A stretch of DNA of 64,000 nucleotides from Paenirhizobium naphthalenivorans. Its GTDB lineage: Bacteria; Pseudomonadota; Alphaproteobacteria; Rhizobiales; Rhizobiaceae. A program made the position numbers and the translations under genes. Below the pieces are notes generated by a model that did no database searches, had not been told where the DNA came from, and saw only the letters and a list, made by a program, of their open reading frames with translations. This document shows positions 31,617 through 54,066 of this stretch, one piece after another. The stretch spans positions 1 to 64,000 of the forward strand of contig NZ_BJZP01000025.1 of NCBI RefSeq assembly GCF_007992095.1, read 5' to 3'. Each line of letters starts with the position of its first letter. The first letter of the stretch is position 1.

Positions 31617-33332
31617 TCAGAGCCCTTCTAGTTGCGAGCCGAGATGATCGGCGAGCTTGATCGCGAACGCCAGGATCATCAGCGTCGGGTTGGCATGGCC
31701 GCTCGTGGGGAAGACCGAACCTCCGGCGATATAGAGGTTGGGCAGGCCATGGACCTTGCAGTTTTCGTCGACCACGCCCGTCTTCGGGCTGGCCGACATC
31801 CGCGTCGTGCCGAGCGTATGCGCCATGTCGATAACGACGATATCCTGCGGACGTCGCTCGACCGCCCAGTCCTCGAGTACGGGCACGGGGAGGTTGGCGC
31901 TCGCCAGGGCGGCGCCCGAGAGCTCCGCGATCCTCAACAGCGTCTGGCGTTCGCCACCATTGATGCGCCAATCGGCCCTGGCGAGCGGGACGCCAAACCT
32001 GTCTCGGCGCGAACCGAGGCTGATCCGGCTGTCGGGGTCCGGGGCCTGTTCACAGATTGCCTCGATCCGCAGGCCCGCCAGCTTGTGGGGAAGGCCCCGG
32101 CTCTGGAACTCGTCGGCAACCATGTTCGGTGACAACCGGATCGCGGTGTTAACCACGAGATCCTTGACAAGTCGGGGCGTCCGCTCGCTCGAGAGGATCT
32201 TCATGCCGGCGCCCCGGGCGATCAGCCCCGAACCGGCCACGACCGAGCGAAGGTCTCGCCCCAGGTCCGTGCTGCGCCGGCGCAGCAGCTTCTTGAGCGC
32301 GTCCCAGGGATCGTCCGGTGCCCGCTCCGTGGCGAAATAGATCGCGGCATTCAACAGCCCCTCGCGCCGCTGAATCTCCGGTGTCAGCGCCAGCCCGTGC
32401 ATGAACATGTGCCCGCGTCCCTTGTGAGAAACGCCGTAAAAGCCGAAAAACCTGCCCACGTTCGCCATGTGCCCGCTTGAAAACCGCCCGACCCGCGTCG
32501 CCGCGTGATCCATCAGATACCGCCCAACGACATCGTGCTGATTGCCTATTCCGCGCGCATGGACGTCATTGGACGCCAGCAGGAGCCTGGCGTTCTCGAT
32601 GCCGCTCGCCGCCACGACGCAGATCCTGGCCTCGATCCTGGCCCGCTTGCCCTTGATGCTTGCCACGTCGACATGGGAGAAACGCGATCCGTCGGGACTG
32701 AGACCGATATGCGTCACCGATGCGTCAAGAAGAACACGTGTGTTTCGCGGCCTTCGCGCCAGCAATTCTCGGCCGAAACGCATGACGTCCAACCGGTCGA
32801 CCCGCGAGCGGGCGAATTGCCAATGGAAGGACTGAAGACCTTCCCTGTCGAAACGGCCGGGCGGTGCCTCGGGACAGAGGTTCAGAACCTCCATGGCACG
32901 CTCGACATAGGCCTCGATCCGACGGTGATCGACCGGCCAGCCCGAATAGGGCACCCAGGGGCGTGATTGGAAGTCCATCGCGTCGAACGGCGCCGACTTT
33001 CCCGCCCAGGCATGCGTCGACCCCCCTAGAGCCCGACAGCGCACGCCGAAGGGCTGGACCTCGTGCGACCAGAAACCGGCTTGCGGACCGTGAAACTCCC
33101 TGCGCTTGCGGAACTGCTGGTCCGAGCACGGCTCGCCCGCATTCTCGACCTCATTCAGCGCGGCATGTTCGGAATTTTCGAATTCGAGCCCGCTTTCGAC
33201 GACGAGGACCCTCTTGCCGGAACGCGCGCATTGCGCGGCAACCGTCAGGCCGGCGGGGCCCGCGCCGACGATCACAAGATCCACCGCGATGACCGAATTG
33301 TCCTCAATGTCGGCCAGATACTCGATCTTCAT
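31617..33332 (-). CDS. GMC family FAD oxidoreductase
   Basis: A 571-residue flavoenzyme. The N-terminal FAD fold DLVIVGAGPAGLTVAAQCA, the ALGGSTHAWAG substrate-side loop, the GIENARLLLAS segment and the C-terminal HTLGTTRM and GHANPTLMI motifs are all present. It oxidises an alcohol group. The ATG at 33332 starts shortly before the FAD fold; a longer reading to 33473 lacks family similarity. It flanks the NRPS/PKS genes and may tailor the product or a sugar, but it is divergent from the DegT gene and not part of the large operon. Confidence 0.85.
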   Translation of the reverse strand: MKIEYLADIEDNSVIAVDLVIVGAGPAGLTVAAQCARSGKRVLVVESGLEFENSEHAALNEVENAGEPCSDQQFRKRREFHGPQAGFWSHEVQPFGVRCRALGGSTHAWAGKSAPFDAMDFQSRPWVPYSGWPVDHRRIEAYVERAMEVLNLCPEAPPGRFDREGLQSFHWQFARSRVDRLDVMRFGRELLARRPRNTRVLLDASVTHIGLSPDGSRFSHVDVASIKGKRARIEARICVVAASGIENARLLLASNDVHARGIGNQHDVVGRYLMDHAATRVGRFSSGHMANVGRFFGFYGVSHKGRGHMFMHGLALTPEIQRREGLLNAAIYFATERAPDDPWDALKKLLRRRSTDLGRDLRSVVAGSGLIARGAGMKILSSERTPRLVKDLVVNTAIRLSPNMVADEFQSRGLPHKLAGLRIEAICEQAPDPDSRISLGSRRDRFGVPLARADWRINGGERQTLLRIAELSGAALASANLPVPVLEDWAVERRPQDIVVIDMAHTLGTTRMSASPKTGVVDENCKVHGLPNLYIAGGSVFPTSGHANPTLMILAFAIKLADHLGSQLEGL

Positions 33333-33690
33333 TCCGAATCCGCTTCCCCCTGCCACGGACGGCAAGTCGACGCCGTTTTCGATCACCGTCGTTTCTGCGC
33401 AATTCCCGATTGTTTGCCAAGGCTTACCGGGCATCGCCAGCCTAGCGACTTCGGCTATCATCGCTTGAACCAAAGGCGCAGCGCCGGACGGAGATCACGC
33501 GCGACCACCCGCTATCCTATAGGGGTAGGACGCCCGCACGGCATACCGCTTCCGTAGGGGGCGCCATCAGCGGATCGGCTCCCCGCTCAGCCGGATGTCC
33601 GTTTTGAATGCTTGGCCGTGAGCGTCTAGGCTCGATCCGCATCCTGCAAATACCGGTTTGGCAAATGCTCGCTCGAATGGAGAACAGATC
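33333..33690. other. divergent intergenic region, GMC / DegT genes
   Basis: About 360 bases between oppositely oriented genes, so both promoters should be here. No convincing -35/-10 pair or long dyad was found; GGAGA before the DegT ATG is the only clear signal. Confidence 0.4.
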
Positions 33691-34884
33691 ATGGCGCGGG
33701 TCGGCTTGAGGGAATGGCTGGCGATTGCCCCCGTCATCGCATCCGGCAGGCTGTCGCGCTACGGCGGCGGAGAAGGCGGACCTCTGGCGCGATTCGAAGC
33801 AGATTTTTCCACGTCCTTCGGTGTGCGCCACACACTCGCGGTCTGCAATGGAACCGCCGCGCTGATCGCGGCGCTGGTCTCTGCCGGCATCGGCCCTTCG
33901 GACGAGGTCCTGGTGCCCGCCTATACGTGGATCGCGACGGCCGGCGCGGTTCTCGCCACGGGCGCCGTGCCCGTCCTCGTCGATATCGACGAGACCCTGA
34001 CCATCGATCCCCTCGACATCGAGCGCAAGATCACGCCGCGCACGCGCGCGATCATACCCGTGCACATGGCCAACATGGTCTGCGACATGGACAGCATCAT
34101 GGGCATCGCCCGCCGGCACGGCCTCGTCGTGGTCGAGGATGCCTGCCAGGCGGTCGGCGCGAGCTACAAGGGTCGACGCGTCGGGACGATCGGCGACGCG
34201 GGCGCCTTCAGCTTCAATCAGTTCAAAAACATCAGCATAGGCGAAGGCGGCGCGATCGTCACCAATGACGACCGCCTGTTCGCGCGTGCCCGGATGTATC
34301 ACGACATCGGTTCGGTGTTTCGCGGCCATCTCGACAATGCCAACGAGCCTCCCTTCTGCGGCGTCAACCTGAAGGCCAGCCAGATCCAGGGCGCGATGCT
34401 CAACGTCCAGCTCGGCAAACTCGACCCAATGATCGCGCGCATGCGCCGGCGCTATGACGCGATGGCTGCGATCCTTACCGCCGCCAGGGGCCCGCGCGTG
34501 GGGCCACACAACGACCGGCCCAACGCCATCGGTCTTCACGTGATCTTCGATACCGAGAAGGACGCGCAGGCGTTCGCGTCCGAGAACCCGCGCGGCGTCC
34601 ATCGGGTTCATGACTCGAGCAGGCATGTCTACAGCTTCTGGCAACCCATATTGCAGCAGCGAGCCGCCCATCCCCGGATGGACCCGTTCGTCTGGGCCAG
34701 CCGTCCCATGGACTATTCACAGGACGTTTGTGCGCGCTCCCTCGAGATCCTGAAGCGCACATGCCGCATCAGCCTCGGTGAAAACTATCCGCTTCCGGTG
34801 ATGACGTTTCTCGCCCGCAGGATGGGGCGGCACCGCAACGTCCCTGCCCCGGTCTATGTCGCGACGCCGGATTACGGGACCTGA
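33691..34884 (+). CDS. DegT/DnrJ/EryC1/StrS family aminotransferase
   Basis: A 397-residue PLP enzyme of the sugar or antibiotic aminotransferase type. CNGTAALIAAL, PAYTWIATAGAVL, VEDACQAVGASYKG and the PLP-lysine segment FNQFKNISIGEGGAIVTND are intact. The ATG at 33691 follows GGAGA. It may aminate a keto-sugar for the polysaccharide or a precursor of the NRPS/PKS product. It is 3 bases from the phosphopantetheinyl transferase gene. Confidence 0.88.
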   Translation: MARVGLREWLAIAPVIASGRLSRYGGGEGGPLARFEADFSTSFGVRHTLAVCNGTAALIAALVSAGIGPSDEVLVPAYTWIATAGAVLATGAVPVLVDIDETLTIDPLDIERKITPRTRAIIPVHMANMVCDMDSIMGIARRHGLVVVEDACQAVGASYKGRRVGTIGDAGAFSFNQFKNISIGEGGAIVTNDDRLFARARMYHDIGSVFRGHLDNANEPPFCGVNLKASQIQGAMLNVQLGKLDPMIARMRRRYDAMAAILTAARGPRVGPHNDRPNAIGLHVIFDTEKDAQAFASENPRGVHRVHDSSRHVYSFWQPILQQRAAHPRMDPFVWASRPMDYSQDVCARSLEILKRTCRISLGENYPLPVMTFLARRMGRHRNVPAPVYVATPDYGT

Positions 34885-34887
34885 TCG

Positions 34888-35703
34888 ATGACGGGGCGCG
34901 CATCGACATCGGCGGTGGCGATCGATCTCTGGACGTGGGATCTGGACAGGCCTCCGGCCGTGGTCGCGAATTTCGCCGCGCTGCTTGCCCCCGACGAGAC
35001 CGCCCGGGCTTCCCGTTTCGTCATGGCGCGCGACGCCGGGCGCTATATCGTTGCGAGGGCCGGGTTGCGCGTAATTCTCGGCAGCCGCCTCGGGATTGCG
35101 CCCGCCGAACTGGCTTTCCTCTACAACGACTTTGGCAAACCGCGCCTCGCGCCGTGCGACATGGCGCTCCGGCACTTCAACCTCAGTCACAGTGGCGCAC
35201 TGGCGATGCTGGCGATCTCCGACCGTTTTCCGCTCGGCATCGACATCGAGGAGGCGAAACCCCTCAAGGAGGACATCGCGGGATATTTCTTCTCCACTCG
35301 CGAATGCGCCTCGCTCGATCGCTTGCCACGAAGCGGTTATCTGAACGCCTTCTATCGGTGCTGGACCCGCAAGGAGGCCTTCGTGAAGGCGCATGGGGAC
35401 GGTCTGACAATCGCGCTGGACGCCTTCGACGTGTCGGTCGGGGCAAAGGCGACTCTCGATCTCGGACGCCTCGACGGCGAAGCGTCGCGGAGCGGCCGCT
35501 GGAGACTTTTCAACATCAAGACGCCCGTCGGCTTCCAGGGTGCGTTGGTCGCCTTGACCGGTGGTGTTCCCGTACAGCTGCGTTATCACCGCTGGTCGGG
35601 CGACGACGTACCGCGCGAGAGCCTCAGTTGCGCAGCCGCGCGTCCAGGATATAGCGGTCTCCCGCTGCATCAAAATGATGACACGCGACCAGCTTCGGCT
35701 TGA
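34888..35703 (+). CDS. Sfp-type 4'-phosphopantetheinyl transferase
   Basis: A 271-residue transferase that loads phosphopantetheine on carrier domains. The signature parts FNLSHSG, LGIDIEE and the motif WTRKEAFVKAHGDGL are present. It is surely the activator of the T/ACP domains encoded opposite. Its 3' end runs 80 bases into the convergent gene at 35624, an unusually long overlap; the last 25 or so residues are Arg/Ala/Ser-rich and may not matter. Confidence 0.92.
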   Translation: MTGRASTSAVAIDLWTWDLDRPPAVVANFAALLAPDETARASRFVMARDAGRYIVARAGLRVILGSRLGIAPAELAFLYNDFGKPRLAPCDMALRHFNLSHSGALAMLAISDRFPLGIDIEEAKPLKEDIAGYFFSTRECASLDRLPRSGYLNAFYRCWTRKEAFVKAHGDGLTIALDAFDVSVGAKATLDLGRLDGEASRSGRWRLFNIKTPVGFQGALVALTGGVPVQLRYHRWSGDDVPRESLSCAAARPGYSGLPLHQNDDTRPASA

Positions 35704-37267
35704 AATCGGGGACGATGGTTCTGACGCATCGCTCGCGATAATTCTCCCGATCGAGCTGCTCGACGAGCATGACGTTCAATCCATAGCCGTAAACGCCGTA
35801 TTCATTGCGCTGCGAGGGGCGATAGAGACGCCCGTCGCGCTGAAACATCCGCCCCGCGTTGCGGGCCGTCGTGCTGTCGAGAACGACGGGATTGCGCTTG
35901 TGCGGAACGACCCGTGACAGGCCCGGGCCATCGACCTCGAAAACATGCAACTCGCTGCAATGATCCTCGTAGGCGTGGAAGTCAGACAGATTGGTGAAGA
36001 GCCACCACCGATCCCGATAGCGCGTCAATACGCTGTCGGCGGGAGAGAGGCCGTGGAGCGCTGTTGCGTGGAGTTCCCACTTCAGTGGAAACTCCACGCA
36101 ACACCAGATTTCCAGCCGGCGCGCCTGATTGGTCTCCGGCATCATGAAAAGGTCCTGTCCATGACGAAAGACGAAAGGATAGGAAAGATGGTAGTCGCGC
36201 TCTAGCGCGACGCCCAACCTCTCCAGCCTGTCGCCATTCATTCGCGCGACCGCGATATGGGCCTTGGTATCCCGCTTCGCATAGGCCTCGTAGAAGAGGT
36301 AGCACTGGCCATCGTGATGCAGCATGAACGGGTCGGCGCGAATTTCATCCCGGTCCGGCGCGATTTCAACGGATTGCCGGGGATCGAAATCCTCAATGTT
36401 TCCGTGGCCGGTGCACAGTGTCCAGACCGCCGATGCGCCGCCCACCTTCGTGTGCAATGCCTTGCCGGCGCGATAGAGGAGCTGGCCGGACAGCGCACCG
36501 GCATAGCGCAGCAGGTCTCCGGTGGAAGGCGGCGTGGCGGCATCGTCCGTCTTGGGCGCGGCCGTGACGGTGCCTAGATTCCCGGTATCCGCGACGCGGG
36601 TGAGCTCCCGCATGACGAGCGTCACCGCGCGTTCCTTGGTGAAACCGGCATTGCGCGCGGCGCTGAACTTGGTGTTGAAGGACGACGACGCCAGGCATTG
36701 GGTCTCAGGATCGGCGCCATGTCTCACATAAAGGCACAGAAGGCTGGAAGGCGCGCGACGCAGTACGCTGTCATAGCCGTGCCAATCGTCGGTATCGCTG
36801 CGCTCGTCGGAGAAGGAAAAGCTCCACTCCCCGAACGGAAGCGCCCGAACGACCTCGTCGGGCAGGCCGACGGCGGTCATGCGGACAACCAGGTCGAGGC
36901 CGAGATCCGACACCAGCCGAACCGCCCGCTTGGCATCGCAGCCATCGAAATCGACAGCCGGCGGCAATCGTTCGTGACGCTGGTTATTCATGGAAAAGGT
37001 CGTGGGCACATAGACCGGCTCGCGCGCCAGTACCGCCTGTTCCAGCCGCGCGAGCGGTCCGAACAGGGGAGAAATCGGCTGGCGCCTGAATGGTCGGGGA
37101 TGGACCAGGAAACTTACCAGCGAAAGGCCGGGAGCCGCCATGACACGGTCGAAGATGCGGAGCTCCCAGTTCTCGAATCCGGGGTTTGGTCCTACGAGAA
37201 ATCCGATCCGCAACGGCTCCGTCGCAACCGACCTCATTCGCTCGCGTTCGGTCACGAGTTTCTCCAT
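35624..37267 (-). CDS. two-domain protein: formyltransferase-like plus GINT1-like domain
   Basis: A 547-residue protein. Residues 18-225 resemble the degenerate formyltransferase fold found in bacterial glucosamine inositolphosphorylceramide transferase-type proteins (DLVVRMTAVGLPDEVVRALP, GEWSFSFSDE in place of the usual SFHHGD). Residues 280-540 resemble the N-terminal domain of plant GINT1, a five-blade-like repeat region (ADPFMLHHDGQCYLFYEAY, YHLSYPFVFRHGQDLFMMPE, DSVLTRYRDRWWLFTN). Such proteins occur in polysaccharide and natural-product loci; the reaction is not known. It begins one base after the stop of the C-T-TE gene and is the last gene of the NRPS operon. Confidence 0.75.
   Translation of the reverse strand: MEKLVTERERMRSVATEPLRIGFLVGPNPGFENWELRIFDRVMAAPGLSLVSFLVHPRPFRRQPISPLFGPLARLEQAVLAREPVYVPTTFSMNNQRHERLPPAVDFDGCDAKRAVRLVSDLGLDLVVRMTAVGLPDEVVRALPFGEWSFSFSDERSDTDDWHGYDSVLRRAPSSLLCLYVRHGADPETQCLASSSFNTKFSAARNAGFTKERAVTLVMRELTRVADTGNLGTVTAAPKTDDAATPPSTGDLLRYAGALSGQLLYRAGKALHTKVGGASAVWTLCTGHGNIEDFDPRQSVEIAPDRDEIRADPFMLHHDGQCYLFYEAYAKRDTKAHIAVARMNGDRLERLGVALERDYHLSYPFVFRHGQDLFMMPETNQARRLEIWCCVEFPLKWELHATALHGLSPADSVLTRYRDRWWLFTNLSDFHAYEDHCSELHVFEVDGPGLSRVVPHKRNPVVLDSTTARNAGRMFQRDGRLYRPSQRNEYGVYGYGLNVMLVEQLDRENYRERCVRTIVPDFKPKLVACHHFDAAGDRYILDARLRN
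36063..36102. repeat. 40-base near-perfect inverted repeat within coding sequence
   Basis: GTTGCGTGGAGTTCCCAC (36063-36080) and GTGGAAACTCCACGCAAC (36085-36102) pair at 17 of 18 positions around a TTCA loop. It lies in the GINT1-like coding region (codons for EIWCCVEFPLKWELHA). Confidence 0.85.
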
Positions 37268-37268
37268 G

Positions 37269-39812
37269 TCAGCGGGCTCGCAACCGTTCCTCGATCGACG
37301 CGGCGAGCGTGCGGATCCCGTCGAAGGTCAGGGAATTCTCATGCCAGCCCGTGAGGTCGATCACACCGGCATCACCATCAAGGGCATCTCCCCAGCCGAA
37401 CCGCACGGCGCCTGCCCGACGATGATTGGCCTGACTGCGAAAAAGCTGCAGGTCGCGAGCTTCCGTGGCCCGATAGTTCCGTGCCGCCCGGACGAGGATT
37501 TCCGTTGCATCGGCGTTCGCCTGCTCTTCCGAGGAAGGCTGGGCGGCTTTGGCACCCAGCATCCGCAGGAGCTTGAGCGTGGCGTTGAACTCCCGGAGAA
37601 AGGCGACGAGCCGCATGCGCCCGGTCAGCAGCCTTCCGGTGAAGTAGCCGATGCGTCGCACCCGCTTCTCGGTATTCCACCAGCGCTGTCGCGCCTTCGG
37701 CAGCGAACGGAAATAGCCCGGCGCCCATGAATCGATGACGGCGGTAAAGGCGATGTCCTTGCCGGCCGCCTTCAGCTGTCGCGCGACTTCCACCGCGAGC
37801 ACGCCGTTGACGCAAAGGCCAACCACGGCGATCGGGCCTGTCACCTCCGCGAGCGGCATCGCTGCGATCGCGTCCCCGGCGACCCGCTCAAGCGACGGCT
37901 CGTCCAGGCAGGAATACGACGCCCCTCGGAGAAGATTGACGTTGTAGACCGAGATGGTGTCGGCGAGTTCGCTCGCGAGACGGTAGTAGAGGAAGGGATG
38001 GTTCAGCGTGAAGACGGCGCACCGGCCGGACCCCGCTTTGTAGAGGGTCGTTTCCCAGGCGCCGGTGGACTTGTCGACCGTTTCCTCCGGCGTGTCGTCG
38101 CCGAATATCGCGCGGGCAAAGGCGCCGAGTGTCGGCGCGCGGAAAAGCAGCTCGAGATTGGGCCTGACGTCGCATTGCTCCTTCACCGCCGACAGCATGC
38201 GGAGCGCCAGCAGCGAGTGCCCGCCAAGCGCGAAGAAATCATCCTCCGGCCGGACCGATTTGACGTCGAGGATCCGCGCCCAGATATCCGTGAGGGTCGC
38301 GACGCGATCCGATGGAGACACCGGCGCGCGCAGGTCCCGCGCGGTCATCTCCGCCGCCTCAACACGACCGGCGCGAGCGCTGGAGAGGGCGACGACCGGC
38401 ACGGTCCCCACGCGGCTGCCGGTCTGGTCTGAGGAAACAACCACCCCGGGAGCGACGAGCGACGACAGCGGCGCCGTTGGCCGGCCAAGCGCAAGCTCGT
38501 AGGCGTCCTGCCACATTTGCAACAGCCGTTCGATGGTCCCTCGGTCGAAGAGATCCGTGTTGTATTCGATCGACATCCGCCAGCCGGACGGACGGCCGAT
38601 CATGATGAAGCTCAGGTCATAGATGACGCCCGGTGATTGCGATGGAGCGCTAACGAGTTCGAAGGCACCGTAGCGGCGATCCTCGAGGAAGGCCTTCTGC
38701 AGATTGAAGTTGACCGAGATCAGCGGATTGCGCGATGGGTCTCGGGGTGGGTTGACCATTTCGACCAACTTGTTGAACGGCATGCGCTGGTGATCGAGCG
38801 CGGCCGCCACGACCGTGCTCGCGGCCCGCAAGTGGTCGAGGAAGGATGTCTCCGGTGCGACATGGAAGCGAAGCACCAGATTGTTGATGAAGACGCCAAT
38901 CAGGTTTTCCAGGTCGGATTGGTCGCGCCCGGCGATCTGCGTGCCAAACAGGATATCGCCGGCACACGTATAGCGGTGTAGCATCGCGCTCATCACCGCG
39001 GCGCCGAAACTGTAGAGCGACACACGGTTCTCGCGGGCGGCGTTTTCCATCCGCTCGCCGAATTCCAGCGGCTTCACGACCGACATGATATTCCCGTTGT
39101 TCGTCTTCTGCGCCTTGCGCGGATGATCCGTCGGCACCTCGAAATAGGGCGCGCCGACCAGTTGTTCCCGCCAGAAGGTCTTCTCGGTCTCGAAACCATA
39201 GCTGTCCAGATAGGCCTTCTGCCACAGTGCGAAATCGCCGTATTGCAGGGCGAGGTCCGGAAGATTTGGTGCCCGCCCCGCGTCGAGCGCCGCCGCGATT
39301 TCCCCGACCTCCCTGCCCAGCACGCGGATCGACCATCCGTCGAAGCAGCTCTGATGCGCGGTGATCAGAATGAAGGCGCGTTCGTTCTCGACGATCAGCA
39401 GCGACACCCGTATGAGGCCAGGCCGGCCAAGGTTGAAGGGCGCGGACGCAGTCTCTTCCCCGATGGAGAGAATCCGCTGTTCGTGCTGCTCGATCGGCAT
39501 GCCCCGGAGATCGATTACCGACAGCCGGAAGTCGACGCCTTCGACGACCTGCTGATAGGGGCTGCCGTTCCGTTCGACGAAGCGCGTGCGCAGAATCTCG
39601 TGACGCTGGATGATCGTGCGCAACGTGGCCTCGATCGTCGACGCCTTGAAATCCCCGCGAATCTCCCAGCGGACCGCAACGTTCAGCGCCGGGTTGCCTG
39701 GCTTTAGCTGATCGAGGACCCAGCAGCGCAGCTGGGTCTGGGTGCAGGGGAATTCGCCGACGATCGCCGTGGTCGCATCGGGGGCCGAGGTGATGTTTCC
39801 CATATGATTCAT
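37269..39812 (-). CDS. NRPS terminal enzyme: C*-T-TE
   Basis: An 847-residue protein without an adenylation domain. The condensation domain (residues 18-450) carries AHQSCFDG near residue 153 in place of HHxxxDG, so the second, catalytic His is Gln. The carrier domain has LGGHSL (Ser about 533). The C-terminal alpha/beta hydrolase (about 600-847) has VGLCVNG near residue 666, Cys where the nucleophilic Ser is expected, and a catalytic-type His in GWHENSL near 823. The T domain must be loaded in trans or accept the chain as it is. The gene overlaps the PKS-NRPS gene (TGATG). Confidence 0.9.
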   Translation of the reverse strand: MNHMGNITSAPDATTAIVGEFPCTQTQLRCWVLDQLKPGNPALNVAVRWEIRGDFKASTIEATLRTIIQRHEILRTRFVERNGSPYQQVVEGVDFRLSVIDLRGMPIEQHEQRILSIGEETASAPFNLGRPGLIRVSLLIVENERAFILITAHQSCFDGWSIRVLGREVGEIAAALDAGRAPNLPDLALQYGDFALWQKAYLDSYGFETEKTFWREQLVGAPYFEVPTDHPRKAQKTNNGNIMSVVKPLEFGERMENAARENRVSLYSFGAAVMSAMLHRYTCAGDILFGTQIAGRDQSDLENLIGVFINNLVLRFHVAPETSFLDHLRAASTVVAAALDHQRMPFNKLVEMVNPPRDPSRNPLISVNFNLQKAFLEDRRYGAFELVSAPSQSPGVIYDLSFIMIGRPSGWRMSIEYNTDLFDRGTIERLLQMWQDAYELALGRPTAPLSSLVAPGVVVSSDQTGSRVGTVPVVALSSARAGRVEAAEMTARDLRAPVSPSDRVATLTDIWARILDVKSVRPEDDFFALGGHSLLALRMLSAVKEQCDVRPNLELLFRAPTLGAFARAIFGDDTPEETVDKSTGAWETTLYKAGSGRCAVFTLNHPFLYYRLASELADTISVYNVNLLRGASYSCLDEPSLERVAGDAIAAMPLAEVTGPIAVVGLCVNGVLAVEVARQLKAAGKDIAFTAVIDSWAPGYFRSLPKARQRWWNTEKRVRRIGYFTGRLLTGRMRLVAFLREFNATLKLLRMLGAKAAQPSSEEQANADATEILVRAARNYRATEARDLQLFRSQANHRRAGAVRFGWGDALDGDAGVIDLTGWHENSLTFDGIRTLAASIEERLRAR

Positions 39813-42800
39813 CAGACGACCCCCATTCCACGACGCGCGCCATTGCGGAAATTAGCCAGTGACGGGATCTGATAGGCCGTGGCCTCCACGTCCGTCTCTT
39901 CCAGTTCCTCCGCATAGGCCGCCAGTTCCGCGATCGAGGGATGACGCAGCAGGTGCTTGGCCTCGAGTGGCAGGCCGTCGTCCAGCATGCGCGCGGCGAT
40001 GCGGAAGATCGTCAGCGAATCCGCCCCAAGCGCATAGAGATTGTCCTCGACGCCAATGTCATCCATGTCGAGCACCGCCATCCATATCCTGGCGAGCCTC
40101 TTTTCCATCTCGGTCCGGGGCGCGGTCTTGACTGCTACCGCCTCGCGCTGCGGCAGACCGCGCTTCACCAGCGCGTCGCGGTCGAGCTTGCCGTTTCCGG
40201 TCTGCGGCAAGGCCTGCTCGATCCGCCAATGGACCGGCACCATATAGGCCGGAAGTTGCGCCCGGGCCCGCGCCGCGAGGCTTTCCCCGGACGGAGCCGA
40301 AGCACCCGGCTCGGTGACGAAATAGCAGACCAGCGACGGATCCCCCTTGCCGTTGCGAACGCCGACCACGGCGCATTGGCGCACGCCCGGAGTCTGGGCG
40401 ACGACCGATTCGATATCGCCGAGTTCGATGCGGAAGCCGCGCAGCTTGATCTGGTTGTCGCGGCGACCCAGCAGTTGCAGAGAACCATCGCGCAGCCGTT
40501 TTCCTACATCGCCCGTCTTGTAGAGACGACGGACGCCCCCAGACCCGATGTCGCAAGGGACAAAGGCTCTCTCGGTCAGGTCCGGCCGTTCGAAATAGCC
40601 GCGCGCGAGGCCGTCTCCACCGATATACAGTTCCCCCGAGACACCGACCGGCGCCAACCCGCCATTACCGTCGATGATATGAAGTTCGGTGTTTGCGACG
40701 GGATGTCCGATCGTGATCGCGGCATCGTCGTCGCGAATACGCTGCAGGGAAGACCAGATTGTTGTCTCGGTCGGGCCATACATGTTCCATAGTTCCGCGC
40801 CCACTCCGGCGAGCGCCTTCGCCAGATCCTTCGGAAGCGGCTCGCCCCCGCACAGCATCTTGAGGCCGCTCTGCTTTCCGATCCCGGCCTCAACCAGCAT
40901 CTGCCAGAGCGTCGGCGTCGCCTGCAACACCGTGGCCCCGCTCTCGCGCACGAGCCGGACAAGCGCGAATCCGTCCTGGACCTGTCCGCGATCGGCGATG
41001 ACCACCTTGCCGCCGGTTACCAGCGGCAGATAGAGCTCAAGCCCCGCGATGTCGAAGGAAACCGTCGTCACCGCGACGATCGTATCGTCCTTGGTGAAGC
41101 CGGGTTCGCGCGCCATCGACGTGAGAAAATTGACGAGCGCCCGGTGGGAGACCTCGACGCCCTTGGGCGTTCCGGTGGAGCCCGAGGTGAAGATCACGTA
41201 GACCGGCGCGTCCGTGTCGGTCGGCAGGTCCGCGAGCGGAGCCTCGGACTGCTCCTTGATGGCCTCGCTCTCCGTGTCGAGACGAATGACGCGCACCCCT
41301 TCTCTGCCGAGCCTCGCCATGGCCTCGCTGTCGCAGACGATCGCGACCGGACGCGCGGTTTCGAGCGTCTGGCGCAGGCGCGCCTCGGGGTGTTCCGGAT
41401 CGAGGGGTACATAGGCATGACCGGCCTTCATCACGGCGAGAAGCGCCGTGAGCATGCCGAGCGAACGATCCACAAGCACGACCACTCGCTGTCCGCGCTC
41501 CGGCACGCAGGCCTGGATGTGCCGGGCGAGCTGGTTGGAGCGCGCTTCGAGCTCGCCATAGGTGATCGCCTTCTCCCGATGGATCGCGGCGACGGCGTCG
41601 GGTTGCTCGGCGGCCTTCCTCGCGAACAGCGAAACGACCGTCTCGCCGCGTTCATAGTCCGCCTCGCTGCGGTTGAGACCATTCGCCAGCCAGTCGAGCT
41701 CGGCCTCGGAGAGAAGCGGCAGTTCTGCGACCGGGCGCTCCATGCTCTCGGCCAGGGCGGTGACCAGCGTGGTGAAGTGGCCAATCCAGCGGTCGACCGT
41801 CTCGGGGTCGAGCACGTCGGCGTTGTAATCGACGTCGATGCGGATGCCTTCGGGGCCCTCGATCATGTTCAGGAACATGTCGAAGTTGGAGAACGCCTTC
41901 GCATTGGGCTCGACATTCGCCGTCAGACCGGCGAACTCGGCATTGGAGGCGACGCGCTCAAGATTGAACTGGATGCCCGTGAGCGGCAACCGATGAGGAT
42001 CGCGCGGAATGTTGAGCGTCCTGACCAGCGTGCCATAGGTATAGTCCTGGTGCTCGAAGGCCTTCAGTACCAGTTGCTGGGTGGTTTTGAGGTGATCCGT
42101 AAACGAGGACGAGGCCACGACGGATTGGCGCAGCGGCAGCAGATTGACACAATGGCCGACAAGGACTTCGTCATCGAGCAGGCTTTGTCCCGCCGACGGT
42201 ACCGCGATGACGACGTCCGATTGTCCCGAAAGGCGTGAAACCATGACCTGGAGCGCTGCGAGCAGGGTGGAAAACAGCGTGGCCCCCGCCCCCGCCCCGC
42301 GCTTCTTCAGCGTCTTGTAGACCTCCTTGCCGATCGTCTTCGTGCAGGTGCCGCCGGAGAAGGTCCGGCGCTCCGGATGCGGCCGGTCGAACGGCATTTC
42401 CAGGACCTCGGGGATGTCCTTGAACTGGTCCAGCCAGAAGCGCGCGGTTTCCCCCGTCGGCTCGGATTTCGGCGCATATTCGGTCGCGTAGGTCGCGAAG
42501 GACAGCGCCGGCTCAAACCGTGCGGTCTCGCCCTGGATGGCGGCGGAATAGGTGGCGGACAGTTCCTCGATGAGAACGTTCATCGACCAGCCGTCGCATA
42601 CGATGTGATGGGCGGTAAAGACGAAGGCGTGCCTGTCGCCGGAGAGCCGCGCCAGCGTGGCCCGGGCAAGCGGTCCGTTGACCAGGTCGAAGGGAACGCG
42701 CGCCTCGGCCGCCACGAGCTCTCGAAGGATGGCGTCGCCGTCGTCCTCCTGACTCAGATCGAGGACCGGCAGGTCGAGGTTGAAATCGGGAATGAAGCCG

Positions 42801-45800
42801 AACCGGTCGCCGGAGCGGTCGAAGCGGATATGCAGCGCGTCATGGCGATCGATGACGGCCTTGAACGCGCCGGCGAATGCCGCCTCGTCGAGAACGCCGT
42901 CCAGCCTGAGCGTGAAGGACTCGTTGAAGGAGCACGAGGCCTCGGCGCCGGCCTGCGCCGCGAGCCAGATCTCGGACTGCGCTTCCGTCAGCGGCGCCGT
43001 GTCGGGCCCCGCGGTCTTTTCCAGTCCGCCCTGCGTCTCTTCCGTCGCAGCCGGCGCTGATGCGCGCTCGGTCGAACGGCCTTCCGCCCCCTTCGGCGAG
43101 AGGATGCCCACCGCCTGAAGCACCTCGACACCATCGCGGAAGGCCTTGGCGATGAAGCGGAAATCCTCCTCACTGTGCGCCGTCGTCAGGAAACATGGGT
43201 AACCGTCCTGGATATGCAGGCCGTTCAGGCGCAGGTAGGGATAGATCAGTCCTCCGAGCGGATCCTGGGCGCTGAAATCGGTCACGAACCAGCTCTTGTA
43301 GCCCTGGAGGTGCGGAGCGATCCCGCGCTTTTCGAGATCGGCGTTGATCTCGCTGATGAGCGCCTGCGTGCGCTCGGCGACGCGGTCGTAGAGCGCGGCT
43401 CCCTCGCCCTTGATGTGCCTGAGCACCGCCCGGGCGGCCGACAGCACGACCGGATGGCGCACGAAGGTGCCGGCGAAGAAGGTCGGCGCCACCATCGGTA
43501 CGGAATCGTCGCCGTAGTTCCAGTCACCGCCATCGAGGGCGTCCATGAAGCGCGGCTCGCCGGCCAGCACGCCGATCGGCATGCCACCGCCGATCACCTT
43601 GCCGTAGGTCGCCATGTCGCCCTTGATGCCCCAGATGGCCTGCATGCCACCCGGATGGACGCGGAATCCAGTCACGACCTCGTCGAACACGAGCGCGAAT
43701 TCCTCCCGCGTGGCGATCTCCCGGAGGCCGCGAACGAACTCTTCCGGCCGCAATTCCGGATGGCGGCTCTGCACCGGCTCGATAATGACGGCCGCGATAT
43801 CGCCCGCGTTGGAGCGGATCCAGTCCAGGCTCTCGGGCGCGCCGTAGCGAAGCACCATCATGTTCGAGACGGAGTTCGCCGGAATTCCCGCGGCGATCGG
43901 CAGCGCGACGGGCTTGGCGGACCGGTTGCGGCCCTTCACAAGCACCTCGTCGAACTGTCCGTGATAATCATTGGCGAACACGACGATATAGTCTCGGCCC
44001 GTCACCGTGCGCGCCACGCGCATTGCCGCCATCACGGCTTCCGAACCGGTGTTGCAGAACGTCACGCGCTGATGGCCGGTCGTCGCGCAGATCATTTCCG
44101 CGACCTCGCCCGCCAGGGGCGTTTGCGGGCCAATGGCGAAACCCGCGTCGATCTGCGTCTTCATCGCCTCAACGATGAAATCCGGGGCGTGCCCGAAGGC
44201 GGTCTGGCCGAAGCCGTTGACCAGATCGATGTATTCATGACCGTCGATGTCCCAAATCCGCGCACCCTTCGAACGGTCGGAGACGATCGGGAAGATCATT
44301 TCCTTCCAGTCGGCGCGGAAGCCGGACGCCGTTCTGGGATCGGCGAGGCGCCGCCGGTTCTTCTCGGTGAACTCCTTCGACCGGCGGTTCTTCGTCGCAT
44401 AGGCCGCGATGAGATCCTCGATGAACTGCTGCTTTTCCGGTGATAACGCGGGAGCGGCCACCTTGGCGTCGGGCCGGTAGAGCCGAATGCGCTCTCCTCC
44501 GAACTCGGCTTGATCCTCGGGGCTGCTCCCAGGTGCGGCGACCCTGGGAGCAGCCTCTGGAGCCTCAGACACTTCGGCGTCACGGGGGGACGGTGGGCGT
44601 GCCGACGATGCGGCCTGAAGCACCTGAAGTTGCTGTGTGAAAAGAGCCTGCGCCATCTGCAGCTGGGATTGAATGACGGCCTCGATGCCCGAACCACCAT
44701 CCATCCGCGCGACCGCCGCGGGCGGGGCGCCTGTAAAGGAAACGGCCGTAGCAGGTGCGGACACCGTCGTCGCCCCGGCGACGGCCGGCATGGTCGCCCG
44801 CGGCTGCGCTTCGGCTGGCTTCGCCGGAGGCGGCATTTGCAGGTCCAGGTGCCGGGCGAGATCGCCGACGGTCGGGATATTGCTCAGCAGTTCACGAAAC
44901 GACAGCTTCACGCCGAACTGCCTTTCGACCTTCTGGGTGAACTGGCCGATGAAAAGGGAATCGAAGCCGAGCTCCAGGAAGGTGCTCGTCCTGCTGCCAG
45001 CATCGAGCGCCTCTCCCGACATGTCGGCGAGGAGCGTGATCAGCGCCCCCTCCAGTTCCGGAATACGATCTGTGGTGGGGAAGGGATTCACGGCGTTCAT
45101 CGTTTCAATCTCGCCTGCTGGTTTCACTTCGGGACTGTTGGACTGGACACTGCTCGCGCGTGGCCCTCGCCGTACGGGCGGAGGCGCGTCGATCCAGTGA
45201 CGCTGACGTTGGAATGGGTAGGTGGGCAGCGGCACGGCGCGCTCGGCGGCGGTGGGCAAAGGCGGCCATGCGAGCTCGCAACCACTCGCCCAGAGCCTGC
45301 CATGCGCTTCCGCCAGAATGACGGCCGCCGCGTCGGCCCGGTCGTGCTCCGGCATCGACTGCACGATGGCCGCCGCGCCGCCGCGGCCGATCGTCTGCGC
45401 CGCGAAGGTCGACAGCGTGCGACCTGGCCCGACCTCGAGCAAGACGGGCTTCTGTTCGCTGCAGAGTGTGCCGAGACCATCCGCGAACCGTACGGCCTCC
45501 CGGCAATGCCGCGCCCAATAATCGGGTGAGGATCCGGCTTCGTCCGTCTGCCATTCGCCCGTGATGCACGAGACATAGGGAACGGTCGCTGTGCCATAGG
45601 TCACTTTCGCCGCCTGCTCGCGCAGGTCGTCGATGCACGGCTCCATCATCGCCGAGTGAAACGCATGGGAGGTCTGCAGCCGGCTGAAGGCGATCCCGGC
45701 CTTTTCCAGATCAGAGCAAACCGCGTCGATATCTTCGAACGGACCGGAGACGACGCACAGCCTGGGGGCATTGATGGCCGCGATTTCGGCGCCGCCGTGC

Positions 45801-47896
45801 AGATGGCGCCGAGCCGTTTCCGGATCACAGCGAACCGATACCATCGCGCCGGGCGGCTGTGTCTGCATCAGCCGGCCGCGCGTCGCGACGAGCCGAAGCG
45901 CATCCTCGAAGGAGATCGCGTTGGCGATGGTGGCCGCCACGAATTCCCCGACGCTATGGCCGATCATCGCATCGGGCATCAGCCCGCGATTCATCCACAT
46001 CCGCGCCATGGCATGCTCAACCAGATAGAGGCAGGGCTGGGCAATGCGTGTCTCGCGCTGTTCCTGCGCCATCGTCTCTGTCACCTGGCCCGTGTGGCAG
46101 ATATAGTCGCGCACATCGATGTTGTGGCTCATCTTTAGCACTTCGGCGCCGCGATCAATCCACCGCGCGAATTCTGGCTCGCGTCGGCAAAGCTCGGCGC
46201 CCATGCCAACATATTGCGCACCCTGCCCCGGAAACATGAATACGACGGGCGGTGCGACATCCTCGGCCTGACTGCTACTCACCCGTTCGGCGCCGAGGAG
46301 CTCAATCGCCTCGGCGGTCGTGCCCGCCACCACAGCGGCGCGGTGCGCGAAGGCGTGACGGCCGATCTGCAAGGTGCGAGCGGCCTGGGGCAGAACGATG
46401 TCGGGATGCGCCCTCAGATGAGCTGCGAGATTACGGCGCGCCGCCGTCAGTGCATCCTCCGTGCGGGCTGACAAGGGCAGGATGAACGGACCCTCGATAT
46501 GGCCCTCCGCGATGGGTCGGGGTGGAGGCGCTTCCTCCAGCACGACGTGGACATTAGTGCCGCCAACCCCGAACGAGCTGACACCGGCCCGTCGGGGCGC
46601 CGATGAGCGGGGCCAGGCCGAGATGCTCTTTGGAATGTAGAAGGCGCTGTCGTTCAAATGGATGTGCGGATTGGGCTCCGCATAATTGGCCATAGCAGGG
46701 ATTTTCGCATGGTGAAGCGCCAGCGCGGTCTTGATCAGCCCCCCCACACCCGCGGCCGCGTCCATATGGCCGATATTGCCTTTGAGCGAACCGAGTGCGC
46801 AGCCACCCCTCTTTTCCGCGATCGAGGAGAAAGCGAGTTGCAGTCCGGCGAATTCGATGGGATCTCCGAGCGGTGTCGCCGTTCCGTGACATTCCACGTA
46901 GCCGATCGTGTCCGGCTCGATCCCGGCATTGGCGAGAGCAACGGAAATGGCCTCCGCCTGTCCCTCCGCGCTTGGCGCCGTGAACCCGATCTTGTCGGAG
47001 CCGTCGTTGTTGATGCCGTAACCACGAATGACGGCATAGATCCTGTCCCTGTCATGCAGGGCATCGTCCAGCCGTTTCAGCAACACCACGCCGGCGCCGC
47101 TCGCGAAGACGGTTCCCGTCGCGTCCGCGTCGAAGGGCCGGCAGACGCCGTCGCGAGACACCATGCCACCTTCCTGGTAAATGTAGCCGCGCTTCTGCGG
47201 GATCGTCACGGACACCCCACCGGCCAGCGCCAGATCGCAGCTATAGGTCAGGAGGTTCTGGCACGCCTGACAAACCGCGAGCAGCGATGTCGAACACGCC
47301 GAATGGATCGTGAAAGCCGGCCCGCGCAGGTTGAACTTGTAGGCGATCCGGGTCGCGAGCGCGTCTGTGATCGAACCGACGATCTGGTTGAAGCAGCCGA
47401 TCTGGTAGTTCGAGGTGAACTCCTCGACCTTGGCACGGTCGCCCAGCACGTTGTTCAGAAGATAGGTCGGCATCGAGCAGCCGGCAAAAACGCCGACCAT
47501 TTCCGAGCGGCGATAGGGATCATAGCCCGCGCCTTCCAGCGCTTCCCAGCAGACCTCGAGGAAGACGCGGTGCTGCGGATCGGTGACGGCTGCCTCGCGC
47601 GGGAACATCCCGAAGAACTCGGCGTCGAACATCTCGATGTCACTGAGAAACGGGCGTGACGCGATATAGTCCGCGCCGGCGCGTTCCTCGTCGGTGAAGG
47701 CATCATCGATCTCGTTGGCGGAGAAGGAGCCGAAGCTGCTGCCTCCTTGCTCGATGAGCGACCACAAGGCCTCCACCGACGGCGCGTCCGGAAAGCGGCC
47801 GGACATGCCGATGATCGCGATACCGTCTGCGGTGCTGGGTTCGTCCGGTTCCTGGCCGCTTGCCAGTCCCTGCACGAGCTTGCCGTTCCCCTTCAT
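39812..47896 (-). CDS. hybrid PKS-NRPS: KS-AT-ACP-AMT-C-A-T
   Basis: A 2,694-residue megasynthase. KS: Cys near 201 (SACSTS), His in CHGTAT and NIGH. AT: GHSVGE (Ser about 648) and HAFH, the malonyl-CoA signature. ACP: LGFDSL (Ser about 982). After an Ala/Pro/Gln linker comes a glutamate-semialdehyde-type aminotransferase with PLP Lys near 1432 (YGKVIGGG). C domain: HHIVCDG near 1761, intact. A domain: FTSGSTGTPKG near 2235; the ten specificity residues read by eye give DILQLGMIWK, close to known glycine codes. T domain: LGADSL (Ser about 2625). No KR, DH or ER is present. AMT after ACP implies conversion of the beta-keto to a beta-amino group, as in iturin/mycosubtilin and microcystin lines. 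Confidence 0.95.
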   Translation of the reverse strand: MKGNGKLVQGLASGQEPDEPSTADGIAIIGMSGRFPDAPSVEALWSLIEQGGSSFGSFSANEIDDAFTDEERAGADYIASRPFLSDIEMFDAEFFGMFPREAAVTDPQHRVFLEVCWEALEGAGYDPYRRSEMVGVFAGCSMPTYLLNNVLGDRAKVEEFTSNYQIGCFNQIVGSITDALATRIAYKFNLRGPAFTIHSACSTSLLAVCQACQNLLTYSCDLALAGGVSVTIPQKRGYIYQEGGMVSRDGVCRPFDADATGTVFASGAGVVLLKRLDDALHDRDRIYAVIRGYGINNDGSDKIGFTAPSAEGQAEAISVALANAGIEPDTIGYVECHGTATPLGDPIEFAGLQLAFSSIAEKRGGCALGSLKGNIGHMDAAAGVGGLIKTALALHHAKIPAMANYAEPNPHIHLNDSAFYIPKSISAWPRSSAPRRAGVSSFGVGGTNVHVVLEEAPPPRPIAEGHIEGPFILPLSARTEDALTAARRNLAAHLRAHPDIVLPQAARTLQIGRHAFAHRAAVVAGTTAEAIELLGAERVSSSQAEDVAPPVVFMFPGQGAQYVGMGAELCRREPEFARWIDRGAEVLKMSHNIDVRDYICHTGQVTETMAQEQRETRIAQPCLYLVEHAMARMWMNRGLMPDAMIGHSVGEFVAATIANAISFEDALRLVATRGRLMQTQPPGAMVSVRCDPETARRHLHGGAEIAAINAPRLCVVSGPFEDIDAVCSDLEKAGIAFSRLQTSHAFHSAMMEPCIDDLREQAAKVTYGTATVPYVSCITGEWQTDEAGSSPDYWARHCREAVRFADGLGTLCSEQKPVLLEVGPGRTLSTFAAQTIGRGGAAAIVQSMPEHDRADAAAVILAEAHGRLWASGCELAWPPLPTAAERAVPLPTYPFQRQRHWIDAPPPVRRGPRASSVQSNSPEVKPAGEIETMNAVNPFPTTDRIPELEGALITLLADMSGEALDAGSRTSTFLELGFDSLFIGQFTQKVERQFGVKLSFRELLSNIPTVGDLARHLDLQMPPPAKPAEAQPRATMPAVAGATTVSAPATAVSFTGAPPAAVARMDGGSGIEAVIQSQLQMAQALFTQQLQVLQAASSARPPSPRDAEVSEAPEAAPRVAAPGSSPEDQAEFGGERIRLYRPDAKVAAPALSPEKQQFIEDLIAAYATKNRRSKEFTEKNRRRLADPRTASGFRADWKEMIFPIVSDRSKGARIWDIDGHEYIDLVNGFGQTAFGHAPDFIVEAMKTQIDAGFAIGPQTPLAGEVAEMICATTGHQRVTFCNTGSEAVMAAMRVARTVTGRDYIVVFANDYHGQFDEVLVKGRNRSAKPVALPIAAGIPANSVSNMMVLRYGAPESLDWIRSNAGDIAAVIIEPVQSRHPELRPEEFVRGLREIATREEFALVFDEVVTGFRVHPGGMQAIWGIKGDMATYGKVIGGGMPIGVLAGEPRFMDALDGGDWNYGDDSVPMVAPTFFAGTFVRHPVVLSAARAVLRHIKGEGAALYDRVAERTQALISEINADLEKRGIAPHLQGYKSWFVTDFSAQDPLGGLIYPYLRLNGLHIQDGYPCFLTTAHSEEDFRFIAKAFRDGVEVLQAVGILSPKGAEGRSTERASAPAATEETQGGLEKTAGPDTAPLTEAQSEIWLAAQAGAEASCSFNESFTLRLDGVLDEAAFAGAFKAVIDRHDALHIRFDRSGDRFGFIPDFNLDLPVLDLSQEDDGDAILRELVAAEARVPFDLVNGPLARATLARLSGDRHAFVFTAHHIVCDGWSMNVLIEELSATYSAAIQGETARFEPALSFATYATEYAPKSEPTGETARFWLDQFKDIPEVLEMPFDRPHPERRTFSGGTCTKTIGKEVYKTLKKRGAGAGATLFSTLLAALQVMVSRLSGQSDVVIAVPSAGQSLLDDEVLVGHCVNLLPLRQSVVASSSFTDHLKTTQQLVLKAFEHQDYTYGTLVRTLNIPRDPHRLPLTGIQFNLERVASNAEFAGLTANVEPNAKAFSNFDMFLNMIEGPEGIRIDVDYNADVLDPETVDRWIGHFTTLVTALAESMERPVAELPLLSEAELDWLANGLNRSEADYERGETVVSLFARKAAEQPDAVAAIHREKAITYGELEARSNQLARHIQACVPERGQRVVVLVDRSLGMLTALLAVMKAGHAYVPLDPEHPEARLRQTLETARPVAIVCDSEAMARLGREGVRVIRLDTESEAIKEQSEAPLADLPTDTDAPVYVIFTSGSTGTPKGVEVSHRALVNFLTSMAREPGFTKDDTIVAVTTVSFDIAGLELYLPLVTGGKVVIADRGQVQDGFALVRLVRESGATVLQATPTLWQMLVEAGIGKQSGLKMLCGGEPLPKDLAKALAGVGAELWNMYGPTETTIWSSLQRIRDDDAAITIGHPVANTELHIIDGNGGLAPVGVSGELYIGGDGLARGYFERPDLTERAFVPCDIGSGGVRRLYKTGDVGKRLRDGSLQLLGRRDNQIKLRGFRIELGDIESVVAQTPGVRQCAVVGVRNGKGDPSLVCYFVTEPGASAPSGESLAARARAQLPAYMVPVHWRIEQALPQTGNGKLDRDALVKRGLPQREAVAVKTAPRTEMEKRLARIWMAVLDMDDIGVEDNLYALGADSLTIFRIAARMLDDGLPLEAKHLLRHPSIAELAAYAEELEETDVEATAYQIPSLANFRNGARRGMGVV
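44521..44555. repeat. perfect 13-base inverted repeat in the ACP-AMT linker
   Basis: GGCTGCTCCCAGG (44521-44533) and CCTGGGAGCAGCC (44543-44555) pair perfectly around a 9-base loop. It lies in the sequence coding for the Ala/Pro/Ser-rich linker before the aminotransferase domain. Confidence 0.85.
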
Positions 47897-49815: not shown

Positions 49816-50124
49816 CGCCCCCTCGTCATGATCGTTGAAACGGCGTAATCGGAGGTTTCGAACCCGCGCCATCACGGCCGGAACTGCCGCCACCGGAGTT
49901 TCAGAATTCCATGATCGGGCGAAATAAATAGATGATCATTGGGCTGAGACGTTTGATCGATCGTACCCGTGGACCTAATCCCTTTGACCGATACGGTTCA
50001 CGGCCTTGCGCTGCGTTTGTCCGATCGAGCCACTCACGGAACCGGCGGAAAGTCCGCGAAACGGCACGGTGCCGCGACCTGAAGATGACAGGCGAGATCA
50101 TCCGATCGGGCACGGCAAGCGCGA
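49816..50124. other. upstream region of the NRPS/PKS operon
   Basis: About 310 bases between the GH16 stop and the first NRPS start, both on the minus strand. It should carry the operon promoter. An AT-richer part lies around 49905-49945 and a short dyad TGATCATT near 49932. No firm promoter or terminator could be chosen. Confidence 0.4.
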
Positions 50125-50982: not shown

Positions 50983-51193
50983 GCCGCTTTCGTAGTCGCT
51001 CGGGCCGGCGATGGGATAGAACTGAATTCGTTTCGCCAGCTACCGCAAAAGGCGTAGCCCCGGAATATGAATATGGTCAGCTTCCCCTTCCACCTGGTTT
51101 TTGATGGAATAACGACGAGATCGGACGGAGAAAGGGGTTGCAGGGCCATCCTATCCGACAGTGACCGACCTGCACCGGCGGGGGACCGGGAAT

Positions 51194-53902: not shown

Positions 53903-54066
53903 AATCATAATTGATAAAAGTCATTTTTAGCGTTGGAAGAAAGTAAATTCTGAATTTGTTTAATAAAATTGATTTCAGTTTCGAGCAAACTGTGCTGAAT
54001 TGTACAATCCGAGGGCAATTCACCTCGTCGTGAGGAGTGTACTGTTCGGGGCCGGGGGGTGGTCGA

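Follow-up and report, generated by a model that had tools for sequence, protein, structure and literature searches.

The subject of this work is the minus-strand gene at positions 35624-37267 of a 64,000-nucleotide stretch of Paenirhizobium naphthalenivorans DNA (positions 1 to 64,000 of contig NZ_BJZP01000025.1, assembly GCF_007992095.1; the whole stretch is called the window below). Its product consists of a formyltransferase (FT)-like N-terminal part and a GINT1_N domain, and it is encoded directly downstream of a combined polyketide synthase (PKS) and nonribosomal peptide synthetase (NRPS) line. The pairing of the gene with this line is inherited with an NRPS-PKS/exopolysaccharide (EPS) locus, and it unites, within an EPS cluster, two modules that can also occur apart. 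Taking the evidence together, we give an even chance to the reading that the protein is a predicted glycan-side enzyme of an exopolysaccharide cluster owning a PKS-NRPS, in which the propeller formed by the GINT1_N domain is active and the FT-like domain is retired. The genes on which the argument turns are the following:

35624..37267, minus strand: FT-like + GINT1_N protein, 547 amino acids (aa); pseudo-formyltransferase at about aa 17-247, GINT1_N five-bladed propeller at about aa 277-547
37269..39812, minus strand: condensation-peptidyl carrier protein-thioesterase (C-PCP-TE) protein, 847 aa; C motif HQSCFDG, with Gln for the second His; intact PCP Ser; Cys as TE nucleophile
39812..47896, minus strand: PKS-NRPS, 2694 aa; ketosynthase (KS)-acyltransferase (AT)-acyl carrier protein (ACP)-aminotransferase-C-adenylation (A)-PCP; inspected catalytic motifs intact
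47893..49893, minus strand: A-PCP loading protein

Recurrence and separability of the pairing

The reading frame of the gene comprises 547 codons from the ATG at 37267, with 0 internal stops. Its junction with the C-PCP-TE gene (37269-39812) was read in the DNA as TGA-C-ATG, which places the ATG one base past the upstream stop, just as the initial annotation had described. That annotation had further proposed that the protein may bind or modify the glycan acceptor of the peptide-polyketide, and had made the proposal depend on finding the pairing in other genomes. In a gene-neighbourhood survey for NRPS and PKS the pairing did recur (33/34 loci, 15/15 genomes and 15/15 plasmid records). The survey comprised 160 loci, namely 34 of the clade in which the protein is adjoined by the NRPS, four sister loci (L198-L201) and 122 more distant loci of the family. 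Most locus spans were ~10 kb or less per side (for L184-L201 ~14 kb upstream and 4-5 kb downstream), and the absences reported below refer to these stretches. L185 and L039 encode one and the same protein, and the 34 clade loci are therefore not fully independent. The sub-cut-off matches G186 and G716 and most of the GINT1_N-only rows were left out, and L047 was tested alone; loci H4, H5, H12 and H15, which belong to the 15 near-full-length plasmid matches, lie outside the locus set, and their C-PCP-TE was confirmed.

A search for related loci yielded eight relatives at 53-63% identity, and across the Rhizobiaceae the NRPS-adjoined protein recurs at 48-63% identity. The C-PCP-TE gene is directly upstream in all clade loci except the 34th, L006, which begins at a contig edge. 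A phosphopantetheinyl transferase (PPTase) homologue was found within 2 kb in 34/34 clade loci, a DegT homologue in 33/34 and a GMC homologue in 28/34. The one-base spacing between stop and start is kept in 13/33 loci, three of these having a TTG start, and in the remaining ones the nearest start is up to ~160 bases downstream or there is a slight overlap. In the plasmid search, query coverage reached 80% or more in 16 records. Identity was 54-62% in 15 of these, each of which also carries the C-PCP-TE, and 30% in the remaining one, from Cupriavidus. The 394 Rhizobiaceae genomes contained 19 near-full-length matches (the window and 18 others at 39-62%), below which came GINT1_N-only matches. 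A close C-PCP-TE homologue (C domain at 62% or more) was found in 15 of the 394 genomes, representing eight genera, and all 15 are among the 19 that have the protein. In the tree the NRPS clade formed a single group (94/92, a support just under the tree tool's own mark, with a long-branch warning for the outgroups), sister to NRPS-less EPS loci.

The two halves of the pairing were also found apart. L198-L201, from four Rhizobiaceae genomes of one genus, encode the protein at 39-42% identity in a related EPS locus with Wzx, the sugar transferase and both GT4 glycosyltransferases, and in 3/4 of them with a Wzy homologue. No homologues of the NRPS, PKS, PPTase, DegT or GMC genes were found within 12 kb in the fetched stretches, and the genomes have no orthologue of the PKS-NRPS, the matches being generic (28-30%) in 3/4 and absent from the fourth. 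The reverse arrangement was seen on plasmids of Rhodobacter sp. CZR27, Loktanella salsilacus and Jannaschia sp. M317, which carry orthologous PKS-NRPS, C-PCP-TE, PPTase and EPS genes (C domain at 45-54%); the GINT1_N profile found nothing in these three Rhodobacterales loci or anywhere on the three plasmids, to which the search was confined. In the Rhizobiaceae genome G346 (98% complete) the PKS-NRPS and the partner C domain were matched at 55%, and a search of the entire genome found no GINT1_N, the surroundings of its PKS-NRPS not being seen. G487 has the PKS-NRPS at 55%, the partner C domain at 51% and, as its only GINT1_N protein, a distant one ~19 kb from the PKS-NRPS. Taking into account both the NRPS-less loci and the NRPS loci lacking GINT1_N, the two halves are separable, and it is therefore most likely that the protein acts on the glycan and not in NRPS chemistry. 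Of the two parts of the original proposal, a function on the glycan has the better support, as the clade occurs in EPS loci without NRPS or PKS (L198-L201) and 79/122 of the more distant loci adjoin polysaccharide genes. A function tied to the peptide-polyketide in particular loses support from the occurrence of the PKS-NRPS without GINT1_N in G346 and on the three Rhodobacterales plasmids. In the Rhodobacterales loci L238 and L239 (of L238-L240) a CocE/NonD-family hydrolase gene stands beside the PPTase gene.

Assembly-line genes were also met in the vicinity of more distant GINT1_N proteins. In L226 a KS-AT-C-A-PCP protein, a hydrolase-like gene and then the GINT1_N protein follow each other on one strand, and L099 contains A-PCP-TE (cut by the contig start), UDP-GlcNAc 2-epimerase, nucleotide-sugar dehydrogenase, the GINT1_N protein, PPTase, GT4, a GH123-like protein and Wzy_C. 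L214-L216, from one genus, are weaker cases, with opposite-strand genes between the GINT1_N and the adenylation gene. The idea that every GINT1_N protein is paired with an NRPS was rejected: an adenylation domain (at least 100 bits) lay within 12 kb in 5/122 other loci, and three of these five are L214-L216. An NRPS was observed within 20 kb of GINT1_N twice (G035 at ~18 kb and G146 at ~9 kb) against 0.23 expected (P 0.02), in a weak estimate tallied by hand over 150 genomes with a guessed cluster length of 15 kb and with L099 uncounted (no condensation domain seen). By this rough estimate, NRPS proximity of distant GINT1_N proteins is modestly unusual. The protein at 8766-10595 of L214, like those of L215 and L216, has an N-terminal part that belongs to no Pfam family and is unlike the FT-like one, and a C-A-PCP-TE gene lies ~5 kb from its gene. 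A tblastn match to the GINT1_N part of L226 was found at 14875-16266 of L241, a linear plasmid of Streptomyces anulatus; this protein is encoded near nucleotide-sugar dehydrogenase and YcaO genes, and 10-14 kb from carrier-protein and adenylation genes.

These data bear on two other explanations of the adjacency. The protein could be an off-loading partner of the NRPS, its FT-like domain serving as an N-acyltransferase that transfers the peptide-polyketide from the terminal PCP or the Cys-TE to an amino sugar bound by the propeller. Its position directly downstream of C-PCP-TE in 33/34 loci (with one-base spacing in 13/33), its presence in 15/15 genomes with a close C-PCP-TE homologue and the assembly-line neighbourhoods in L226 and L099 would be consistent with such a function. 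However, the PKS-NRPS and its C-domain partner occur without GINT1_N in G346 and on the three Rhodobacterales plasmids, in L198-L201 the clade is represented without the NRPS, the formyltransferase motif was found in 0/34 clade members (see below) and the assembly line owns a TE, and we regard an off-loading function as unlikely. Alternatively, there could be no functional link, the two genes being neighbours since the EPS locus moves in its entirety. The NRPS clade forms one group, and the pairing may thus go back to one event; the locus is patchy (15/394 genomes) and often on large plasmids; and NRPS near GINT1_N elsewhere is barely above rough chance. All this would agree with such a joint transfer. 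Passive co-transfer is nevertheless improbable in our view, as the gene order is kept at 48-63% protein identity across eight genera and other EPS blocks did move (L029 and the window compared with L030).

Folds and conserved residues of the protein

Pfam recognized GINT1_N (PF24793) at aa 309-516 (E 1.1e-40, 140.1 bits against a curated cut-off of 27), in agreement with the initial assignment to a domain known from plant glycolipid glucosamine transferases. A scan of the 547-aa protein with NCBIfam gave zero models at E<=0.01, a sequence search of the PDB gave nothing at E<=1, and a PDB search with a nine-row alignment gave a single match at E 0.48. Folds were compared by means of AlphaFold2 models. 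The mean predicted local distance difference test score (pLDDT) was 58 for the whole protein, with aa 21-60 and 111-150 reaching 79-92, and 54 for a propeller-only model, in which the fold class is readable rather than the detail; the low values are probably due to the nine usable close sequences. No signal peptide was seen by eye, and we infer that the protein is cytoplasmic.

In the whole-protein model, aa 14-271 share their fold with methionyl-tRNA formyltransferase (Z 14.6), ArnA-N (13.3) and WbkC (12.7), the overall range being Z 12.4-14.6; the best alignment, with 3r8x (Z 14.6), covers 182 residues at a root-mean-square deviation (rmsd) of 3.5, in a model of moderate confidence. At the same time, no Pfam formyltransferase model matches the 547-aa protein at E<=0.1, and the earlier description of this part as degenerate formyltransferase-like is apt. 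The residues of the FT motif (His, then Gly-Asp and Arg-Gly) have catalytic roles. Searched as the regular expression H..GD..RG, this motif was found in 0/34 clade members and 0/4 sister loci, and in 3 of the 122 other GINT1_N proteins (L220, L222 and L041), with 112 others having an N-terminal part without the motif and 7 having no N-terminal part, all these counts deriving from a pattern search only. At the motif position the window protein reads GEWSFSFSDER. It differs from the sugar N-formyltransferases in having no Pfam match and none of the motif that its distant relatives L220, L222 and L041 have kept. A DegT-type aminotransferase belongs to the ArnA pathway, and in the window, too, such a gene lies near the FT-like gene. 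Taking into account that the N-terminal part is variable whereas residues of the propeller are near-invariant, the family is defined by its propeller, and the formyltransferase fold looks like a decaying appendage.

As regards the propeller, aa 277-510 of the whole-protein model matched a GH32 propeller at Z 12.5. The propeller-only model has a fold in common with GH32, GH43 and GH117 enzymes, the oligomannan phosphorylase Teth514_1788 and Leishmania MPT-2 (Z 9.5-12.3), the top match, 7vco (Z 12.3), extending over 214 residues at an rmsd of 4.2. The likeness of these enzymes to the window protein in sequence is marginal (best E 0.004), and the comparison is one of folds. MPT-2 (6q4x) was at rank 37 with Z 9.7, level with many hydrolases, and it is not claimed as the nearest relative, being one row among many matches; its title, GDP-mannose-dependent mannosyltransferase MPT-2, indicates that a propeller of this type is able to act as a sugar-nucleotide transferase.

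Residues D312, E327, H360, S362, E378, D411, R469, Q486 and H530 are kept in 159-161 of 161 GINT1_N proteins, and R483 in 151/161; the window protein has all of these as well as D542. A 65-row subset of the 161 domains spans 20-77% identity to the window. In the model, the near-invariant residues recur at intervals on successive propeller strands, by eye as one set for each of the five blades. It is where these strand positions lie that five-bladed propellers hold their pocket.

A stand-alone GINT1_N protein of 296 aa (Pfam 117.6 bits), which carries the polar residues of the family, is encoded in Acinetobacter baumannii between aspS and ilvE-type genes (L047), and by its place and orientation was taken to be ghy/orf1/2898. 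Insertion into ghy has been reported to shorten the A. baumannii lipooligosaccharide (PMC4110982), and deletion of 2898 to remove in part the two outermost N-acetylhexosamine (HexNAc) residues of the outer core, the role of the gene being called unclear by the authors (PMC10936431). The first BLASTp match of Ghy outside Acinetobacter was reported to be an archaeal 'putative formyl transferase' (PMC4172580). Like the window protein, Ghy/2898 is thus a GINT1_N protein of a glycan locus, and according to the two mutant reports (PMC10936431, PMC4110982) it is needed for a complete outer core; unlike the window protein, L047 has no formyltransferase-like part and no adjoining NRPS. Plant GINT1, a glycosyltransferase of glycosyl inositol phosphorylceramides (GIPC) containing N-acetylglucosamine (GlcNAc), is the namesake of the Pfam domain. 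Plant GINT is assigned to GT64 (PMC9113257). Pfam finds no GT64 part in the 547 aa of the window protein, GINT1_N and a sub-threshold GH43 being the only matches, and for this reason the plant analogy needs care.

These comparisons allow a further interpretation, in which the propeller would trim or edit the glycan as an ordinary glycoside hydrolase. Its fold matches are mainly GH32 and GH43 hydrolases, and there is a weak GH43 likeness in sequence as well: the profile of the 65-row domain subset gave a marginal match in the PDB (4qqs, E 0.004), and Pfam GH43 scored 15.5 bits with the window protein and 30.8 with L048. In all members scanned, however, Pfam GH43 stays below its cut-off of 32.2 bits, and the invariant set includes Arg, Gln and His besides acids. 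Moreover, sugars are lost when the A. baumannii relative is missing, and the authors who describe this express doubt about the hydrolase annotation. An ordinary hydrolase seems rather unlikely to us.

Predicted role in the exopolysaccharide cluster

In the adjoining line the KS Cys was intact in 26/26 rows covering that site, and the AT Ser, the aminotransferase Lys and the inner C motif in 33/33. The terminal C domain has HQxxFDG in 32/33 (HH in L009), and with HQ it may form no bond. The TE nucleophile is Cys (GLCVNG) in 33/33, Asp and His being conserved in the 12 rows inspected. The TE Cys is shared by the three Rhodobacterales proteins, two of which have HH in the C domain and the third HQ; in L238 an adenylation domain is still traceable below the cut-off. 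Thioesterases with Cys for Ser at the nucleophile position are known from ObiF and SulM (PMC6668435, PMC11298585). The SulM motif is Gln-Cys-Asn (PMC11298585), in contrast to GLCVNG in the window, and neither beta-lactone nor beta-lactam chemistry is implied for the window line. The adenylation specificity codes were read by eye, and no substrate is assigned to the line. Judging from its domains, the PKS-NRPS would make a beta-amino-acyl chain, and its ending without an adenylation domain would fit an acceptor other than a carrier-bound amino acid.

According to the glycan-side reading that we favour, the propeller would be the working domain, namely a transferase, a phosphorylase or a trimming enzyme with the repeat-unit glycan, or the amino-sugar residue of this glycan, as its target. 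The FT-like domain would descend from the sugar-nucleotide N-formyltransferases that follow DegT aminotransferases, and would now only bind the amino sugar or a partner. The PKS-NRPS would make a beta-amino-acyl peptide, its terminal C-PCP-Cys-TE would deliver this peptide to that amino sugar, and the finished unit would be flipped and then polymerised by Wzx/Wzy. We propose that such delivery to the amino sugar would explain the adjacency of the genes. The arrangement hints that the exopolysaccharide may carry a peptide-polyketide ornament. It is possible, if doubtful, that GINT1_N is more particularly a propeller-type glycosyltransferase or phosphorylase for amino-sugar glycans, with an MPT-2-like fold, which builds or primes the amino-sugar unit that the Cys-TE PKS-NRPS loads with the beta-amino-acyl peptide. 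If a glycosyltransferase or phosphorylase of this kind is at work, the product would represent a previously undescribed class of peptide-polyketide-decorated Wzx/Wzy exopolysaccharide, with an assembly line common to rhizobia and Rhodobacterales.

Several observations weigh against a glycan-side enzyme with a working propeller and a retired FT-like domain. The literature search found no described activity for an isolated GINT1_N domain. Both models are weak (pLDDT 58 and 54) and poorest in the last two blades, and the pocket is thus unsupported by them. L047 was equated with ghy/2898 by position (aspS/ilvE, opposite orientation) and not by the sequences of the mutated genes; furthermore, strains whose outer core lacks HexNAc are reported to retain 2898 all the same (PMC10936431), and this speaks against a simple HexNAc role. 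L192, L193 and L195-L197 carry His at one FT motif position, and the loss of FT chemistry in these five is not certain. Finally, at least two further lineages (L226 and L099) have an NRPS as a neighbour of GINT1_N, which hints at a link with NRPS chemistry.

In the literature searched (open-licence, titles and abstract starts) we found no description of a bacterial FT/GINT1_N fusion, of this EPS/PKS-NRPS cluster or of the NRPS pairing. Surface-glycan loci with GINT1_N proteins are found in many bacteria and in at least one archaeon, and the near-invariant residues, together with the natural separations, offer direct tests for the A. baumannii 2898/Ghy mutant phenotype, which its report leaves unexplained (PMC10936431). 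The maintenance of the PKS-NRPS within a Wzx/Wzy-type EPS cluster in two alphaproteobacterial orders suggests a polysaccharide ornament made by an assembly line. Since several of the carriers are nodule isolates, a relevance to plant association is possible.

The surrounding cluster and its borders

To judge from its gene content, the setting is a Wzx/Wzy-type exopolysaccharide cluster with a putative polymerase. Its other genes in the window are as follows:

31617..33473, minus strand: GMC oxidoreductase
33658..34884, plus strand: DegT-type aminotransferase; pyridoxal phosphate Lys190 and Asp161 conserved in 33/33
34888..35703, plus strand: 4'-phosphopantetheinyl transferase; convergent with the FT-like/GINT1_N gene, overlaps its end
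50125..50982, minus strand: GH16 family glycoside hydrolase
51161..52639, plus strand: Wzy-like membrane protein, assigned from place, length and hydrophobicity; no Pfam family
52591..53902, plus strand: polysaccharide pyruvyl transferase, in two reading frames
54037..54768, plus strand: Crp-family regulator
55209..55952, plus strand: LuxR-type regulator
56448..57623, minus strand: GT4 glycosyltransferase
57883..59307, plus strand: polysaccharide export protein, Wza type
59346..61682, plus strand: Wzz/Wzc-type chain-length and kinase protein
61643..62623, plus strand: GT2 glycosyltransferase
62627..63880, plus strand: GT4 glycosyltransferase

Beyond the window, the same 69-kb contig (L067) encodes homologues of Wzx, the sugar transferase and a TIGR04325-family methyltransferase. 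The annotated relatives carry a similar set of EPS genes, and an annotated set is present in L030. The pyruvyl transferase of the window is split, one part of PF04230 being matched by 52591-53388 and one by 53333-53902; it is a single gene in L029 and L030, and the split is either a frameshift or a sequencing error. On the minus strand at 22007-26745, a DarB-like antirestriction family (phrog_10089) is matched, in consecutive portions, by two overlapping open reading frames (23254-26745 and 22007-23341). They lie near ParB-like and DUF3991/Toprim genes and a DDE transposase, in a plasmid- or phage-like region that borders the EPS cluster.

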